In this document: positions 5,662 to 14,733 of the stretch, piece after piece
How positions within the stretch are numbered: the stretch's first letter is position 1
How the letters are laid out: each line of letters starts with the position of its first letter
NCBI GenBank assembly: GCA_025928415.1
Contig: JAICJK010000016.1
Coordinates: 1 to 15,053, forward strand
Direction of reading: 5' to 3'
Length of the DNA stretch: 15,053 nucleotides
DNA from: Solirubrobacteraceae bacterium
Lineage (GTDB): Bacteria > Actinomycetota > Thermoleophilia > Solirubrobacterales > Solirubrobacteraceae
Position numbers and translations under genes: made by a program
The notes under the pieces: model-generated
The model's database searches: none
What the model was told of the DNA's origin: nothing
Seen by the model: the letters and a program-made list of their open reading frames with translations, nothing else

Positions 5662-6006
5662 ATGCGACCACGACGCCTCCCACGACGCCTCCCGCGGCGC
5701 GCCGGCCCGTCCTGCGCGCCACCCGCCGATCCGGTGCGCGACCTGCTCGCCTCGCTGCCGTGGACGCACCCGAGCGGCGCCCCCGAGGGCTGCGTCGCGC
5801 TGCTGCGGCGCGCCGCCGAGGAGCGCGGCGCCGACCTGAGCGCCGTCGACCCGTGGGTGCTCGACCACGGCGGCACGATCGCCTCGGCGCTGCTGGGCAA
5901 CCGGCCGCTGGGGCGCAGCGGCGCCCGGGCGGGCGCCCACGAGGTGCCGTACTACGTCGTGCCGGTCGCCGCGCTGGAGGGCGACCCGGCGGCCTGCGGG
6001 CGGTAG
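5662..6006 (+). CDS. Uncharacterised small protein (114 aa)
   Basis: This 114-residue soluble protein starts with an Arg/Pro-rich segment (residues 1-24) encoded partly by a 12-bp tandem repeat. A more ordinary mixed sequence follows, with a predicted helix (residues 40-60) and a Gly-rich/Tyr-Tyr-Val-Val strand-like end. The start at 5662 has AGGAG at 5646-5650, 11 bases upstream, which is rather far. An in-frame GTG at 5734 would remove the odd basic segment and may be the true start. The last 55 bases overlap the 3' end of the convergent gntR gene. No family was recognised. Reality is supported by the ribosome site and by having no better frame over 5730-5950; function is unknown. Confidence 0.5.
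   Translation: MRPRRLPRRLPRRAGPSCAPPADPVRDLLASLPWTHPSGAPEGCVALLRRAAEERGADLSAVDPWVLDHGGTIASALLGNRPLGRSGARAGAHEVPYYVVPVAALEGDPAACGR
5668..5691 (+). repeat. Perfect 12-bp tandem duplication
   Basis: CCACGACGCCTC occurs twice back to back (5668-5679 and 5680-5691). A third partial copy follows. In the 5662 frame it encodes the repeated Arg-Arg-Leu-Pro segment. Confidence 0.85.
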
Positions 6007-6791
6007 CTCCCGCCGCGATCCTCCCAGCCCGGGCTGCGGACCCGGACGACGAAGCGCGCGCGGTCGCCGCGATGGTGGTCGCGGGCGAACTCGACCGGCG
6101 TGCCGGCGGCGGTGCGGGCGACGCGCTCGACGAGCATCAGCGGCGCGCCGACCTCCACGCGCAGCGCGGCCGCGTGGTGCTCCTCGGCGAGCACGGGGAC
6201 GAGCCGCTCCTCGGCGCAGGCGGGCGCCATCGCGTAGTGGTCGGCCAGCAGCGCGTACAGCGAGCCGCGCAGGTCGCGCTCCAGCAGGCCCGCCAGCGGC
6301 GCCGCCGGAAGCCACGAGTCCTCCAGCACGAGCGGCGCCCCGTCGGCCAGGCGCAGCCGCTCGATCCGCCACACCGCCGCGCCCGGCTCGAGCGCGAGCT
6401 CGCGGGCGACCCACGCGGGCGCCGGCAGCTCGGCCGTCGCCCGGATCCGCGCCTGCGGGGCGAGGCCGTGGCGGCGGGCGACCTCGGTGAAGCCGGCCAG
6501 CGCTGTGAGGTCGTGCTCGACCCGGGGCCGGGCGACGAACGTCCCGCGCCCGACGCCCCGCTCGACCAGCCCGCGCTCGGCGAGGCCGCGCAGCGCCGCG
6601 CGGGCGGTCATGCGGCTGATGCCCAGCGCGGCGGCGAGGTCGCGCTCGGCCGGCAGCCGGTCGCCGACTGCGAGCTCGCCGGCGTCGATGAGGCCCGCCA
6701 GGCGCCGCTCGAGCTGCGCGTAGGCGGGCACGCTGGAGCCGCGGTCGAGCGCCCAGCGGGCGGTGATCGCCGAGGCCGGCGCGGCGGGCAT
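5952..6791 (-). CDS. GntR-family transcriptional regulator, HutC/UTRA subfamily
   Basis: This 279-residue regulator has an N-terminal winged helix-turn-helix (about residues 20-88), with the typical GDRLPAERDLAAALGISRMTA region and the wing GRGTF. It is followed by a UTRA ligand-binding domain (about 95-235). The protein is usually a dimer that releases DNA when a small effector binds. It is divergent from the dehydrogenase at 6873. The shared intergenic region carries two identical operator-like sites and back-to-back promoters, so it most likely controls both that gene and itself; the effector may be a substrate of the dehydrogenase. The ATG at 6791 is preceded by TTGACA-N18-CAGGCT-N6, which favours a leaderless start. 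The C-terminus is about 30 residues longer than typical and overlaps the convergent 5662 gene by 55 bases. Confidence 0.92.
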   Translation of the reverse strand: MPAAPASAITARWALDRGSSVPAYAQLERRLAGLIDAGELAVGDRLPAERDLAAALGISRMTARAALRGLAERGLVERGVGRGTFVARPRVEHDLTALAGFTEVARRHGLAPQARIRATAELPAPAWVARELALEPGAAVWRIERLRLADGAPLVLEDSWLPAAPLAGLLERDLRGSLYALLADHYAMAPACAEERLVPVLAEEHHAAALRVEVGAPLMLVERVARTAAGTPVEFARDHHRGDRARFVVRVRSPGWEDRGGSYRPQAAGSPSSAATGTT

Positions 6792-6797
6792 GGCGTC

Positions 6798-6827
6798 AGC
6801 CTGCACGCTGGTCCATACCAATGTCAA
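6798..6827 (-). promoter_or_regulatory. Promoter of the HutC-type gntR gene
   Basis: Minus strand: TTGACA (6827 to 6822), an 18-base spacer, CAGGCT (6803 to 6798), then 6 bases to the ATG at 6791. The -35 box is perfect and the -10 is weak. The operator at 6809-6820 lies within the spacer, fitting autoregulation. Confidence 0.5.
6809..6820. promoter_or_regulatory. GntR/HutC operator-like site 1
   Basis: TGGTCCATACCA is an inverted repeat (TGGT-N4-ACCA). It matches 10 of 12 bases of the DasR-type core TGGTCTAGACCA known for HutC-subfamily regulators. With two following bases (AT) the 14-bp sequence recurs exactly at 6874. It sits between the -35 and -10 of the gntR promoter. Confidence 0.7.
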
Positions 6828-6841
6828 GCAGCGGCTTGACA
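6822..6841. repeat. Inverted repeat of two outward-facing -35 boxes
   Basis: TGTCAAGC (6822-6829), spacer AGCG, GCTTGACA (6834-6841): a perfect 8-bp inverted repeat whose arms are the -35 elements of the two divergent promoters. Confidence 0.75.
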
Positions 6842-6865
6842 GGCCGCTTTGACGTGCAGTAGAGC
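6836..6865 (+). promoter_or_regulatory. Promoter of the dehydrogenase gene
   Basis: TTGACA (6836-6841), an 18-base spacer, TAGAGC (6860-6865), then 7 bases to the ATG at 6873. There is no Shine-Dalgarno, so the transcript is predicted to be leaderless. Operator 2 covers the start point. Confidence 0.55.
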
Positions 6866-6872
6866 TGCCATC

Positions 6873-9329
6873 ATGGTCCATACCAATCTTCCCGACGCCG
6901 CCGCCTGCGTCGTGATCGGCGGTGGCGTGGGCGGGACGAGCATCGCCTACCACCTGACGCGCCTGGGCCTGCGCGACGTCGTGCTCGTCGAGCAGCACGA
7001 GCTGACGGAGGGGACCACGTGGCACTCCGCGGGGTTCGTCGGTCAGCTGCGCTCCACGATCAGCCAGACGCGCATGATCATGTACTCGGGCGGGCTCTAC
7101 GCCGAGCTGGCCCGCGGCACCGGCCGCGACCCGGGGTGGCGGGGCGTGGGCGGGATCCGCGTGGCCACGACGCCCGAGCGCGTGCAGGAGCTCGAGCGCC
7201 AGGCGGGCTCGGCGACGACCTACGGCCTGCAGCTCGACCTGCTGAGCCCGGCGCAGGCACAGGAGCGCCTGCCGCTGCTGGCCGTCGGCGACGTGCTCGC
7301 CGCCGCCTGGATGCCGGGGGACGGCTACCTGGATCCCGTGCTGCTCACCGAGGCCCTGGCCGAGGGCGCGCGCCGCGGCGGCGCGGCCCTGCACGCGCGC
7401 ACCAAGGTGACGGGCATCGACGTGCGCGACGGGCGCGTGACCGGCGTGCGGACCGACCGCGGCGCGATCGCCGCCGAGACCGTGGTGATCGCCGGGGGCG
7501 CGGCCAGCGGCGTGCTGGGCCGCCTGGCGGGCGTGACGATCCCGGTCATCCCGATGCGCCACCAGTACGTGGTCACCGAGCCGCTGGACCCACCCGTCGG
7601 CGAGGTCCCCACCGTCCGCGACCCGGACGGGATCATGTACTTCCGCCCCGAGGCCGGCGGCCTGCTGGTCGGCGGCTACTCGCGCGACCCGGTGACCTGG
7701 GACGTCGCGGAGCCGCTCGCCGAGCCGCGGGCGCTCTTCGGCGCCGACATGGAGCGCTTCGGCGAGTCGTGGGCCAACGCGGTCCGGCGCGTCCCGGCGC
7801 TGCGGGACGCGGCGATCGCGAAGGTCGTCAACGGCCCCGAGGCGTTCACCCCCGACGGCGAGTTCGTCCTCGGCGAGACCGAGGTCGGCGGCCTCTGGGC
7901 GGCCGCGGGGTTCTGCGTGCACGGCCTGGCGGGCGCGGGCGGCGTGGGCAAGGTCATCGCCGAGTGGATCGTCGACGGCCGCCCGGAGTACGACGTCGCG
8001 TCGATGGACATCCGCCGCTTCGGCGCCCAGTACCGCAGCGCCCGCCACGTGCGGGTCAAGGCCCTGGATGCCTACTCGCGCTACTACGACGTCGTCTACC
8101 CCCACGAGGAGCGCGATGCCGGGCGCCCGCTGCGCGTCCCGTCGACCTACGAGCGGCTGGCCGAGCTCGGCGCGGCCTTCGGCGAGAAGGCGGGCTGGGA
8201 GCGCGCGAACTGGCTGGAGGCCAACGCCGCCGCGGGCGAGGCGAGCCTGCGCCCGCGGGGCTGGGCCGGGCGCTTCTGGTCGCCGGCCATCGGCGCGGAG
8301 TGCCTGGCCACGCGCGACGCCGCCGCGCTGTTCGACCAGTCGTCGTTCAGCAAGCTCGACGTCCGCGGCCCGGGCGCGGTCGCCGCCCTGGGCCGGCTCT
8401 GCGCCAACGACGTCGACAAGCCGGTCGGCAGCGCCGTCTACACGCAGCTCCTGAACCCCGCCGGGGGGATCGAGGCGGACCTCACGGTCACCCGCGTCGC
8501 CGAGGACGCCTTCCGCGTGGTCACCGGCACCGCGTTCGGGCGCCGCGACCTCGCGTGGATCCGCGGGCACCTGCCGCGCGACGGCGCGACGGTGGCCGAA
8601 GACGTCACCTCGGCGCGCGCCTGCCTGTGCCTGTGGGGGCCGGCGGCGCGCGAGATCCTCCAGCCGCTGACCGACGCGGACCTGTCCCACGAGGCCTTCC
8701 GCTTCCTGACCGCGCGCGAGATCGGCGTCGGGGCCGTCCCGGTGTTCGCCCAGCGCATCACGTTCGTCGGCGAGCTGGGCTGGGAGCTGTACTGCCCGGC
8801 CGAGTACGGCCGGGCGCTGTGGGACGCGCTGTGGGCCGCGGGCGCCGGTCACGGGCTGCGCGCGGGCGGCTACCGCGCGATCGACTCGATGCGCCTGGAG
8901 AAGGGGTACCGCGTGTGGGGGACCGACATCACGCCCGAGACGACCCCCGACCAGGCCGGCCTGGGCTTCGCGGTCCGGATCGACAAGCCGGGCGGGTTCA
9001 TCGGGCGCGAGGCGCTGCTGGCCGCCCGCGAGGCCGGCGGCCCCGCCGAGGCGCTGCGCTGCCTGGTCCTCGACGACCCGCTGGCGATCTGCCTCGGCGA
9101 CGAGCCGGTCCGCGTCGGCGGTGTCCCCCGCGGCCGCGTCACCTCCGGCGGCTACGGGCACCGCGTGGGCTGCAGCATCGCCTACGCCTACCTGCCCGCC
9201 GCGCTCGCCCCCGGCGACCGCGTCGAGGTCGCCGTCTTCGGCCGCTGGATCGGCGCGCAGGTCGCCCGCGAGCCGCTCTACGACCCGGGCAACGACCGGG
9301 TCAGGGGGACGGCGACCGCGGCGCGCTGA
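6873..9329 (+). CDS. Dimethylglycine/sarcosine dehydrogenase-type FAD oxidoreductase with GcvT domains
   Basis: This 818-residue two-part enzyme has an N-terminal FAD-binding DAO domain with GGGVGG at 16-21. TTWHSAG follows, with H51 at the position of the covalent FAD histidine of DMGDH/SARDH. A linker (FAO_M-like, about 370-430) leads to aminomethyltransferase (GcvT) domains from about residue 440 to the end. GGIEADLTV with D536 matches the catalytic Asp of the folate-binding site. The family oxidatively demethylates N-methyl amines, passing the methyl as 5,10-methylene-THF. Which N-methyl compound is used is unclear; dimethylglycine and sarcosine are candidates. A TTG at 6849 would add 8 residues, but the -10 position and operator overlap favour the ATG at 6873. 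It is single and divergent from its likely regulator. A toxin-antitoxin fossil follows directly. Confidence 0.92.
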   Translation: MVHTNLPDAAACVVIGGGVGGTSIAYHLTRLGLRDVVLVEQHELTEGTTWHSAGFVGQLRSTISQTRMIMYSGGLYAELARGTGRDPGWRGVGGIRVATTPERVQELERQAGSATTYGLQLDLLSPAQAQERLPLLAVGDVLAAAWMPGDGYLDPVLLTEALAEGARRGGAALHARTKVTGIDVRDGRVTGVRTDRGAIAAETVVIAGGAASGVLGRLAGVTIPVIPMRHQYVVTEPLDPPVGEVPTVRDPDGIMYFRPEAGGLLVGGYSRDPVTWDVAEPLAEPRALFGADMERFGESWANAVRRVPALRDAAIAKVVNGPEAFTPDGEFVLGETEVGGLWAAAGFCVHGLAGAGGVGKVIAEWIVDGRPEYDVASMDIRRFGAQYRSARHVRVKALDAYSRYYDVVYPHEERDAGRPLRVPSTYERLAELGAAFGEKAGWERANWLEANAAAGEASLRPRGWAGRFWSPAIGAECLATRDAAALFDQSSFSKLDVRGPGAVAALGRLCANDVDKPVGSAVYTQLLNPAGGIEADLTVTRVAEDAFRVVTGTAFGRRDLAWIRGHLPRDGATVAEDVTSARACLCLWGPAAREILQPLTDADLSHEAFRFLTAREIGVGAVPVFAQRITFVGELGWELYCPAEYGRALWDALWAAGAGHGLRAGGYRAIDSMRLEKGYRVWGTDITPETTPDQAGLGFAVRIDKPGGFIGREALLAAREAGGPAEALRCLVLDDPLAICLGDEPVRVGGVPRGRVTSGGYGHRVGCSIAYAYLPAALAPGDRVEVAVFGRWIGAQVAREPLYDPGNDRVRGTATAAR
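6874..6885. promoter_or_regulatory. GntR/HutC operator-like site 2, overlapping a start codon
   Basis: This TGGTCCATACCA is identical to site 1, including the following AT. It begins at the second base of the dehydrogenase ATG, so it covers the predicted +1 and codons 1-5 (MVHTN). The centres of the two sites are 65 bp apart, close to six helical turns. Confidence 0.7.
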
Positions 9330-12933: not shown

Positions 12934-13596
12934 TCACCGGGCCGCCGGCACGTCGCCCGCGGCCGCCCACGCGCTGCGCGTCAGCAGCAGGTGCTCGCGG
13001 GCGGCGGCCTCGGCCTCGGCGGGGCTCCCGCCGGCGACCGCGTCGAGGATCGCGCCGTGCCCCGCGGCCACGGCCCGCAGCGGGGCACCGTCCGCCGGCC
13101 GGGCGCCGTAGAAGCGCAGGTGGTCGCGCAACCGGTCGACGAGGTCGACCAGGCGCCGGTTGCCCGCATGCCGCAGCAGCTCCAGGTGGAAGCTGCGATC
13201 GAGGGCCAGGAAGGCGATCAGGTCGTCCCCGGCGGCGGCCTCGATGCCGCCCTCGACGAGCGCTCGCAGCCGCGCGAGGGCGGGGGCGTCGAGCGTGCGG
13301 GCCAGGCGGGCGATCGTCGGCGCCTCGACCAGCATGCGCAGCTCCAGCGTCGCGTCCAGCTCGCGCGCCGTGCGCTCGACGACCCGGAAGCCGCGGTTGC
13401 GCACCGGTTGCACCATCCCGCGGCCGGCGAGCTCGAGCATCGCCTCGCGCACCGGCGTCACCGACATCCCCACCTGCCGTGCGAGGTCCGGCGCGGAGTG
13501 GATCTCGCCCGGCGCCAGACGGCCGTAGACGATGGCGGCGCGGATGTGGCGCAGCGCCTGCTCGCGGAGGCTCGGGGCGGGGGCGTCAGGCCGCAC
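12934..13596 (-). CDS. GntR-family regulator, FadR/FCD subfamily
   Basis: This 220-residue protein has an N-terminal winged helix (about residues 10-75: SLREQALRHIRAAI and VTPVREAMLELAGRG). An all-helical FCD ligand domain (85-215) follows. The metal-site residues typical of FCD proteins are present: D133 and H137 in DRSFH, H180 and H202. It probably binds a metal plus a carboxylate effector. It starts with GTG at 13596, overlapping the 3' end of the Rieske oxygenase gene by 11 bases, so translation is coupled and the regulator is made with its probable target. The palindrome at 14715 in the Rieske promoter is a good candidate operator for it (or for the neighbouring paralogue). Confidence 0.92.
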   Translation of the reverse strand: MRPDAPAPSLREQALRHIRAAIVYGRLAPGEIHSAPDLARQVGMSVTPVREAMLELAGRGMVQPVRNRGFRVVERTARELDATLELRMLVEAPTIARLARTLDAPALARLRALVEGGIEAAAGDDLIAFLALDRSFHLELLRHAGNRRLVDLVDRLRDHLRFYGARPADGAPLRAVAAGHGAILDAVAGGSPAEAEAAAREHLLLTRSAWAAAGDVPAAR

Positions 13597-14671
13597 GCTG
13601 GGCGGCCAGCCCCTGCGCGCGCATCGCCCGGCGGTAGGCCACGGCCACCGCGTCGAACTTGAGGTGCATCTCGTCGGCGAGGTCGAACGGCACGCGGTCG
13701 GGACGCTGGGACTCGACGACCCGGCGGTCCTGCTCGAAGATCGTGTCCTCGAAGTCCTGCAGGACCTTGTCGGGCTGCTCGTGGTCGTAGTTGCGGCCGA
13801 TCACGACGTACCCGATGCAGGTGTCGGCGGCGACCGGCTGTGACGCGAAGAAGTAGACCATCCCGCGCTCGCCGCCCCACCCGAGCCGCAGCACGATCGT
13901 GTAGGGAAGGTGGAGCTGGTAGCGGCTGCGGCGCTCGGGCGCCTGCGTCTCCTCGTTGGCGAACACGGGGAACTCGTCGCTGTTGGGCGCCTCGGGGCGC
14001 ACGACGTCGTAGCGCAGCACGTGCCCGTCGGTCTCGACGGTGTGCTTGGGGACGACGGGCCGGCTCGGGTCGCCGAGCAGCCCCGGGTGCACCCACGGGA
14101 AGTGGCCGAAGTCGGTGAAGTTCTCGACCTGGCGCGAGGCGTCCGAGGCCCACTGGTACGGCCCGGTCCTGACCACCGTCCACTCGGACGACTCGAGCTC
14201 GGGGATCTCGGGCAACGGCCACCGGGCCTCGGCCATCGCGACCCACAGCAGCCCGTAGCGCTCCTGGCACGCGAAGGCCTCGACGCGCGCCTTCCCCGGC
14301 ACGCGCGTGGGGTCGGCGAGCTGCGGGATCGCCTTGCAGCGGCCGTCGGTGCCGTAACGCCACCCGTGGTAGGGGCACATGAGCTGGTCGCCGACGACGC
14401 GCCCGAGCGACAGGGCGGTGCCGCGGTGGATGCAGAGGTCGACGAGCGCGTGGGGGGCGCCCGCGGAGTCGCGCCACAGGACGAGCGCCTCGCCGAGCAG
14501 CCGGACGCGCAGCGGCTCGGTCCCGAGCTCGTGCGCGTAGGCGACCGGGTGCCAGCACTGCCGGAGCGCCTCGAGGTCCGGGATCGCGGCGGGAGCCTCC
14601 CCGGCGCCCGCGTCCGGGGCGCCGGCGTGACCGGTGGCGGTGGTGGTGGCGGTGGTGATGGCGGCGTGCAT
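13586..14671 (-). CDS. Rieske non-heme iron oxygenase, alpha-subunit type
   Basis: This 361-residue protein has a Rieske [2Fe-2S] domain (C80-x-H82 and C99-x2-H102). The mononuclear iron site has D187, H190 and H195 in ENFTDFGHFPWVH, with D315 in EQDRRVVESQRP as the likely third ligand. This layout matches VanA/phthalate-type oxygenases that demethylate or hydroxylate aromatic or N-alkyl substrates using electrons from a separate reductase, which is not in the window. The N-terminal 30 residues are a Thr/Ala/Gly-rich low-complexity tail with a 12-bp tandem repeat; the conserved core starts at about residue 36. The ATG at 14671 has AGGAG nine bases upstream. It is first in a series with the FCD regulator. 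The substrate is unknown. Confidence 0.92.
   Translation of the reverse strand: MHAAITTATTTATGHAGAPDAGAGEAPAAIPDLEALRQCWHPVAYAHELGTEPLRVRLLGEALVLWRDSAGAPHALVDLCIHRGTALSLGRVVGDQLMCPYHGWRYGTDGRCKAIPQLADPTRVPGKARVEAFACQERYGLLWVAMAEARWPLPEIPELESSEWTVVRTGPYQWASDASRQVENFTDFGHFPWVHPGLLGDPSRPVVPKHTVETDGHVLRYDVVRPEAPNSDEFPVFANEETQAPERRSRYQLHLPYTIVLRLGWGGERGMVYFFASQPVAADTCIGYVVIGRNYDHEQPDKVLQDFEDTIFEQDRRVVESQRPDRVPFDLADEMHLKFDAVAVAYRRAMRAQGLAAQRAA
14633..14656 (+). repeat. Perfect 12-bp tandem duplication in the Rieske N-terminus
   Basis: GGTGGCGGTGGT occurs twice in succession (14633-14644 and 14645-14656). On the coding strand it encodes the Thr-Thr-Ala-Thr-type stretch after the start. Confidence 0.85.
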
Positions 14672-14680
14672 CGGAGAGGG

Positions 14681-14685
14681 CTCCT
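14681..14685 (-). promoter_or_regulatory. Shine-Dalgarno of the Rieske oxygenase gene
   Basis: AGGAG on the minus strand (14685 to 14681) is 9 bases before the ATG at 14671. This fixes the start and shows this gene has a normal leader, unlike several others here. Confidence 0.75.
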
Positions 14686-14703
14686 GACCGGAGGGGTTCG
14701 ACG

Positions 14704-14733
14704 ATGGTATGTAAGGTACTACCGAGCTGTCAA
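14704..14733 (-). promoter_or_regulatory. Promoter of the Rieske-gntR operon
   Basis: Minus strand: TTGACA (14733 to 14728), an 18-base spacer, TACCAT (14709 to 14704). Transcription would start near 14697, leaving a leader of about 26 bases with the AGGAG site. The -35 box overlaps the TGA of the upstream regulator gene. Confidence 0.6.
14715..14723. promoter_or_regulatory. Candidate GntR/FCD operator in the Rieske promoter spacer
   Basis: GGTACTACC has arms GGTA and TACC around one base, fitting the GT-N3-AC core common in FCD-type GntR operators. It lies between the -35 and -10 boxes. Either neighbouring FCD regulator could bind it. Confidence 0.5.

Follow-up and report, generated by a model that had tools for sequence, protein, structure and literature searches.

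A putative autoregulated GntR/HutC-family divergon with an operator across the start codon of a dimethylglycine dehydrogenase-like gene in a member of Solirubrobacteraceae

The window analysed here comprises 15,053 nucleotides (nt) of contig JAICJK010000016.1 from the genome assembly GCA_025928415.1 of a Solirubrobacteraceae bacterium (3.25 Mb in 669 contigs, 87.5% complete). It includes a gene for a GntR-family regulator (gntR) and, divergent from it, a gene (deh) for an enzyme resembling dimethylglycine dehydrogenase (DMGDH) and dimethylglycine oxidase (DMGO); their start codons are 81 bp apart. The region between the two genes is marked by two identical palindromes, referred to below as operators 1 and 2, and by two TTGACA hexamers (Table 1).

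Table 1. Genes and predicted control elements of the gntR-deh region (window positions)
Feature	Positions	Strand	Description
gntR	5952..6791	-	279-aa GntR/HutC-family regulator, GntR winged helix-turn-helix + UTRA
deh	6873..9329	+	818-aa DMGDH/DMGO-like enzyme, FAD + folate domains
Operator 1, TGGTCCATACCAAT	6809..6822		palindromic core 6809-6820; inside the predicted gntR promoter spacer
Operator 2, identical 14-mer	6874..6887		core 6874-6885; covers deh start codon and codons 2-5
Inverted repeat TGTCAAGC-AGCG-GCTTGACA	6822..6841		made by both predicted -35 elements
gntR -35, TTGACA	6822..6827	-	perfect hexamer
gntR -10 candidate, CAGGCT	6798..6803	-	weak, 2/6; 6 nt upstream of ATG
deh -35, TTGACA	6836..6841	+	perfect hexamer
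deh -10 candidate, TAGAGC	6860..6865	+	3/6; 7 nt upstream of ATG

The two operators are exact copies of one 14-mer, lie 65 bp apart and together span 79 bp, just as the first-pass annotation of the window had described. Operator 2 starts within the deh start codon and is thus only nominally intergenic. A scan of the window for TGGTCCATACCAAT with up to three mismatches revealed no third match, and two matches appeared in none of 200 shuffles. Perfect TGGT-N4-ACCA is found in the window solely at the two operator positions; tolerating one mismatch gives 8 matches (shuffle mean 1.43). Among 20,000 dinucleotide shuffles of the 99-bp region 6792-6890, 39 contained at least one perfect site and none contained two. 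In the complete set of contigs, the 12-bp core had no match within one mismatch beyond the two operators (1 and 2 matches on the two strands for a control pattern), and no wider regulon was found in this genome. Bare TGGT-N4-ACCA was mildly enriched genome-wide, with 26 matches vs 16 for its control.

The gntR product is a member of the GntR family, HutC subfamily. It combines an N-terminal GntR winged helix-turn-helix (PF00392, 69.8 bits, cut-off 27) with a C-terminal UTRA effector domain (PF07702, 132.9 bits, cut-off 23.8) and stays below the cut-off for every model among the best 25 of its 26 NCBIfam matches. Its ATG (6791-6789) is backed by the 62% identical ortholog in genome G220, which has the same N-terminal length up to a common RW. 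The nearest structures in PDB are those of DasR and YvoA/NagR. NagR contacts its operator bases via Arg38, Arg48 and Gly69 (PMC4333415), which correspond, counted along the alignment, to R50, R60 and G81 of the window regulator; the residues that read the GG of the half-sites are therefore kept. The window sites likewise show the GG-N6-CC half-site spacing given for the dre sites of NagR and DasR (PMC4333415, PMC4398421), and their 12-bp core is identical to the dre core TGGTCTAGACCA at 10 of 12 bases, although it does not match the exact dre consensus A(G/C)TGGTCTAGACCA(G/C)T (PMC4398421). The palindrome centre also differs and, unlike the present sites, the dre sites of Bacillus are reported to be imperfect palindromes (PMC4333415, PMC4398421). 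The first-pass annotation had spoken of a DasR-type HutC operator, and the term is valid for the operator class only: the adjacent gene is DMGDH-like, no amino-sugar gene adjoins the regulator or is visibly under its control (no further operator match in the incomplete assembly), and orthology to DasR was rejected as a classification while being kept as a likeness. The window encodes a second GntR-family regulator, of the FCD type (12934-13596, minus strand), near genes for a Rieske oxygenase and ribose-5-phosphate isomerase A.

The deh product has the domain architecture of the dimethylglycine dehydrogenase/oxidase family (DAO, FAO_M, GCV_T and GCV_T_C), its best PDB matches are DMGDH and DMGO, and it falls below the NCBIfam cut-offs for the best 25 of 34 matches. 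We regard it as DMGDH/DMGO-like, with demethylation of dimethylglycine as its putative reaction. An LP, IP or PP motif follows the start by 5-7 residues in eight N-termini, those of the window enzyme and of seven relatives (starts picked by us). This agreement in N-terminal length supports the ATG at 6873 and, with it, the earlier proposal that operator 2 lies over the start codon; the site extends across codons 2-5 as well. The N-terminal sequence MVHTN itself, which the first-pass annotation had named as something to compare among relatives, is present in none of the seven examined. Only 13 of the 818 deh codons end in A or T, codons 3, 5 and 6 among them; the sole CAT (among 13 His codons) and the sole AAT (among eight Asn codons) both fall inside operator 2. 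Codon use is thus consistent with pressure from the operator on codons 2-5 and, together with the comparison of relatives, favours the suggestion that the first codons of the enzyme may be shaped by it. Gene starts are, however, often A/T-richer in any case.

At E<=1e-50, the regulator was detected in 5 of the 146 genomes of the family sample, the window genome included; motif searches covered an order sample of 232 genomes. Apart from G220, the relatives of this clade are G010 (57% identity), G021 (54%), G330 (53%, found via the motif and aligning in two pieces) and G413 (52%), and all five have a related palindrome at gntR or at a candidate target. In G010, G021, G330 and G413, the orthologous gntR has the palindrome ATTGG-N6-CCAAT, or a version one base off, at its start, immediately upstream of the ATG (in G330, of an ATG where the regulator begins). 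G021 has a further palindrome, ATTGGACCAGACCAAT, where a kinase gene starts; in this genome it is the gntR site that is one base off the extended motif ATTGGNCNNGNCCAAT. Exact copies of that motif are present in 12 of the 232 genomes, against 6 for a control pattern. Four of the 12 have the match in this cluster, at gntR (G010, G330 and G413) or at the kinase gene (G021), and in the other eight no related gene is seen in the 1.5 kb flanking the match on each side. The pattern TTGGTCCATACCAA, with a single match in the 232 genomes, says little because the window's own sites lack its leading T. In G220, two sites with one mismatch each lie in the 232-bp intergenic stretch between the enzyme and kinase genes.

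In a survey of gntR homologs, with start positions extrapolated from the alignment, a HutC-type site was found in 21 of 65 upstream stretches (20 of 64 if the window is left out) vs 2 of 65 control stretches taken inside genes. Homologs with at least 50% identity had such a site in 4 of 7 cases (window included; controls, 0 of 7), those with 43-50% in 4 of 16 and those with 30-43% in 13 of 42. The 65 were retained from 68 loci: L079 was lost to the E-value limit, L182 duplicates L153 and L060 is truncated. L079 carries TGGTCTATACCA near its start, outside the survey. From the 80 loci found in one search, 21 were examined and 20 were put into the set of 68. Some more distant regulators (44-49%) have near their starts GTCTAGAC, the centre classically seen in HutC sites (L195:6551-6562; L184:6495-6502; L191:4688-4695), at loci that also hold deh relatives.

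Gene order around the regulator varies: the divergent neighbour of gntR is a glutamine-synthetase-like gene in G010, G021, G330 and G413, and deh in the window. None of the examined loci holding both gntR and deh has them as an adjacent divergent pair. The expectation that orthologous loci would show TGGT-N4-ACCA at both places thus held in part, as the motif recurs and the exact layout, an adjacent divergent pair with two sites, was seen in no examined relative. The glutamine-synthetase-like and kinase genes of the window genome are divergent on a different contig, C164, where the stretch between them has no site (best 12-mer 8/12, score 1.2 vs 14-19 for known sites). The visible regulon in this incomplete assembly is therefore gntR plus deh. 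At L200:2480-2700, the glutamine-synthetase-like gene of C164, 75% identical to that of G010, diverges from a choline-kinase/APH-like gene; a GAAGGTA stretch near the synthetase start recurs, by eye, in G010, G021 and G413. The compact G010 cluster (L142:1415-7631) includes aldehyde dehydrogenase, amino-acid permease, glutamine-synthetase-like, gntR and kinase-like genes and possibly represents a gamma-glutamyl-amine route. The best NCBIfam match of the kinase-like proteins is the pre-guanitoxin N-oxide kinase model, below its cut-off, and we claim no such role for them.

Both TTGACA hexamers of the intergenic region face outward and form a single 8-bp inverted repeat, as previously described, and their co-occurrence was seen in 11 of 20,000 dinucleotide shuffles of 6792-6890. 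On its own, such an inverted repeat is unremarkable (287 of 20,000 shuffles; 16 in the window, overlaps counted). An inverted duplication of two promoter arms was rejected, as the alignment of the stretches from -35 to ATG did not stand out from shuffles, 3717 of 20,000 of which scored as high. The 18-base spacers of the first-pass annotation are less secure than its hexamers: the latter are perfect, but the spacing depends on weak -10 boxes, and a strict promoter scan detected no promoter. The promoter assignment is nevertheless made plausible by boxes with 18-bp spacers elsewhere. All three TTGACA hexamers of the window are upstream of predicted starts, and the third (14669-14733, minus strand) has an 18-bp spacer to TACCAT and precedes a plausible ATG (14671) of a Rieske/VanA_C-type oxygenase gene. 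In relatives, TTGACT-N18-TAGCGT precedes the G021 kinase gene and TTGACC-N18-TAGGGT, read by eye, precedes the G330 gntR. The operator comes soon after a TAGNNT box at the G021 kinase gene, at gntR of G330, G413 and G010, and at the G220 enzyme gene; at the kinase-side site of G220, TAGGCT is immediately upstream by eye (a script ranked other boxes). The exceptions are the G021 gntR and the window gntR promoter, where the operator is within the spacer. With the -10 candidates 6 and 7 nt from the two ATGs, both transcripts are likely to be leaderless; leaderless genes are reported to be common in mycobacteria.

We consider it highly probable that gntR and deh form an autoregulated GntR/HutC-family divergon, in which the repressor would sterically block both promoters and deh would probably be leaderless with an operator over its start codon. 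A dimer of the 279-aa regulator would bind each TGGTCCATACCA palindrome, one dimer sitting between -35 and -10 of the regulator's own promoter and the other covering the transcription start of deh together with its first codons. The bound dimers would block RNA polymerase in both directions, each on its own promoter, until a metabolite of a methylated-amine pathway bound the UTRA domain and freed the regulator from DNA, inducing both genes. That one HutC-family regulator may act both ways, as the first-pass annotation had it, is supported by the palindromes of relatives at gntR, at the kinase gene (G021) and at the enzyme gene (G220). Several observations weigh against this interpretation. Both -10 boxes are weak (TAGAGC 3/6, CAGGCT 2/6), and each window site misses two left-arm bases of ATTGGNCNNGNCCAAT. 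The closest ortholog, that of G220, has no site at gntR, and its two intergenic sites are a chance number for the contig (mean 2.00; at least two in 114 of 200 shuffles), as are its matches to the extended motif (75 of 200 shuffles); for both sites to fall in that intergenic stretch, the probability is roughly 6 in 10,000 under uniform placement, with the stretch itself picked afterwards. Finally, 3 of the 7 homologs with at least 50% identity have no upstream site, and several of the 21 upstream matches are not independent, because close relatives contribute one site more than once.

Among the alternatives, it is unlikely that the two operators act jointly, with two dimers forming a short DNA loop or binding cooperatively to close both promoters together. 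The presence of two identical sites within one 81-bp intergenic region would fit such an arrangement, and Suvorova et al. (PMC4494728), who described 60 HutC regulator divergons with double sites, read 32 of them, with a constant distance between the sites, as cooperative pairs and the other 28, with a growing distance, as having one site per operon. In the window, however, the 65-bp separation amounts to ∼6.2 turns, which is not clearly in phase, and each site is within its own promoter and not at the centre. Moreover, the motif scan gave a single site each in G010, G330 and G413, and the two sites of G021 are ∼1.8 kb apart, which leaves all four relatives with one site at gntR. Looping, which the first-pass annotation had considered possible, is therefore unsupported.

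It is quite improbable that the 20-bp palindrome TGTCAAGC-AGCG-GCTTGACA serves a different regulator as its operator and that the TTGACA hexamers are not -35 boxes. The two perfectly matching 8-bp arms, placed centrally in the intergenic DNA, and the weak -10 boxes would suit this explanation, but 8-bp inverted repeats are common in the window, and the placement of all three TTGACA hexamers and the -35/-10 pairs of G021 and G330 argue for promoters. A chance origin of the repeats, or a small duplication without regulatory role, is very improbable: the mild genome-wide enrichment of TGGT-N4-ACCA and the lack of the two-site layout in relatives would agree with it, but the shuffle statistics, the uniqueness of the two sites in the assembly and the recurrence of the motif at the cluster of the same regulator in four relatives all speak against it.

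In HutC sites, GT and AC are mostly 4 nt apart, and HutC divergons with double sites are an already described class (PMC4494728), of which the proposed gntR-deh switch is a further member. As in those divergons, the regulator gene faces a structural gene and two GT-N4-AC palindromes lie between them, each near its own gene. The difference is that the structural gene here has its start codon overlapped by operator 2; the searched text of that paper does not contain 'overlap', 'dimethylglycine' or 'sarcosine'. HypR of Streptomyces coelicolor is similarly a GntR-family autorepressor of catabolic genes whose own binding site covers the -10 region, but it is an FCD-type (FadR) regulator with another motif (PMC6608401). 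Among the paper titles listed for GntR regulators of dimethylglycine or sarcosine genes, none describes the present regulator.

In the relatives, the operator is at gntR facing the glutamine-synthetase-like gene or at the kinase gene. It is conceivable, though we would not call it probable, that the window combines a leaderless gene whose start codon and codons 2-5 contain the operator with a rewired regulon, the operator having shifted to the dehydrogenase and been lost at the glutamine-synthetase/kinase pair. If so, one short stretch of DNA would serve as transcription start, translation start, repressor site and N-terminal coding sequence. General knowledge of such switches is unchanged by this case. 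What it adds is a likely operator, and with it a small regulon, for a clade of HutC-family regulators associated with DMGDH-like enzymes, as well as a clean candidate for an operator that may constrain N-terminal codons.

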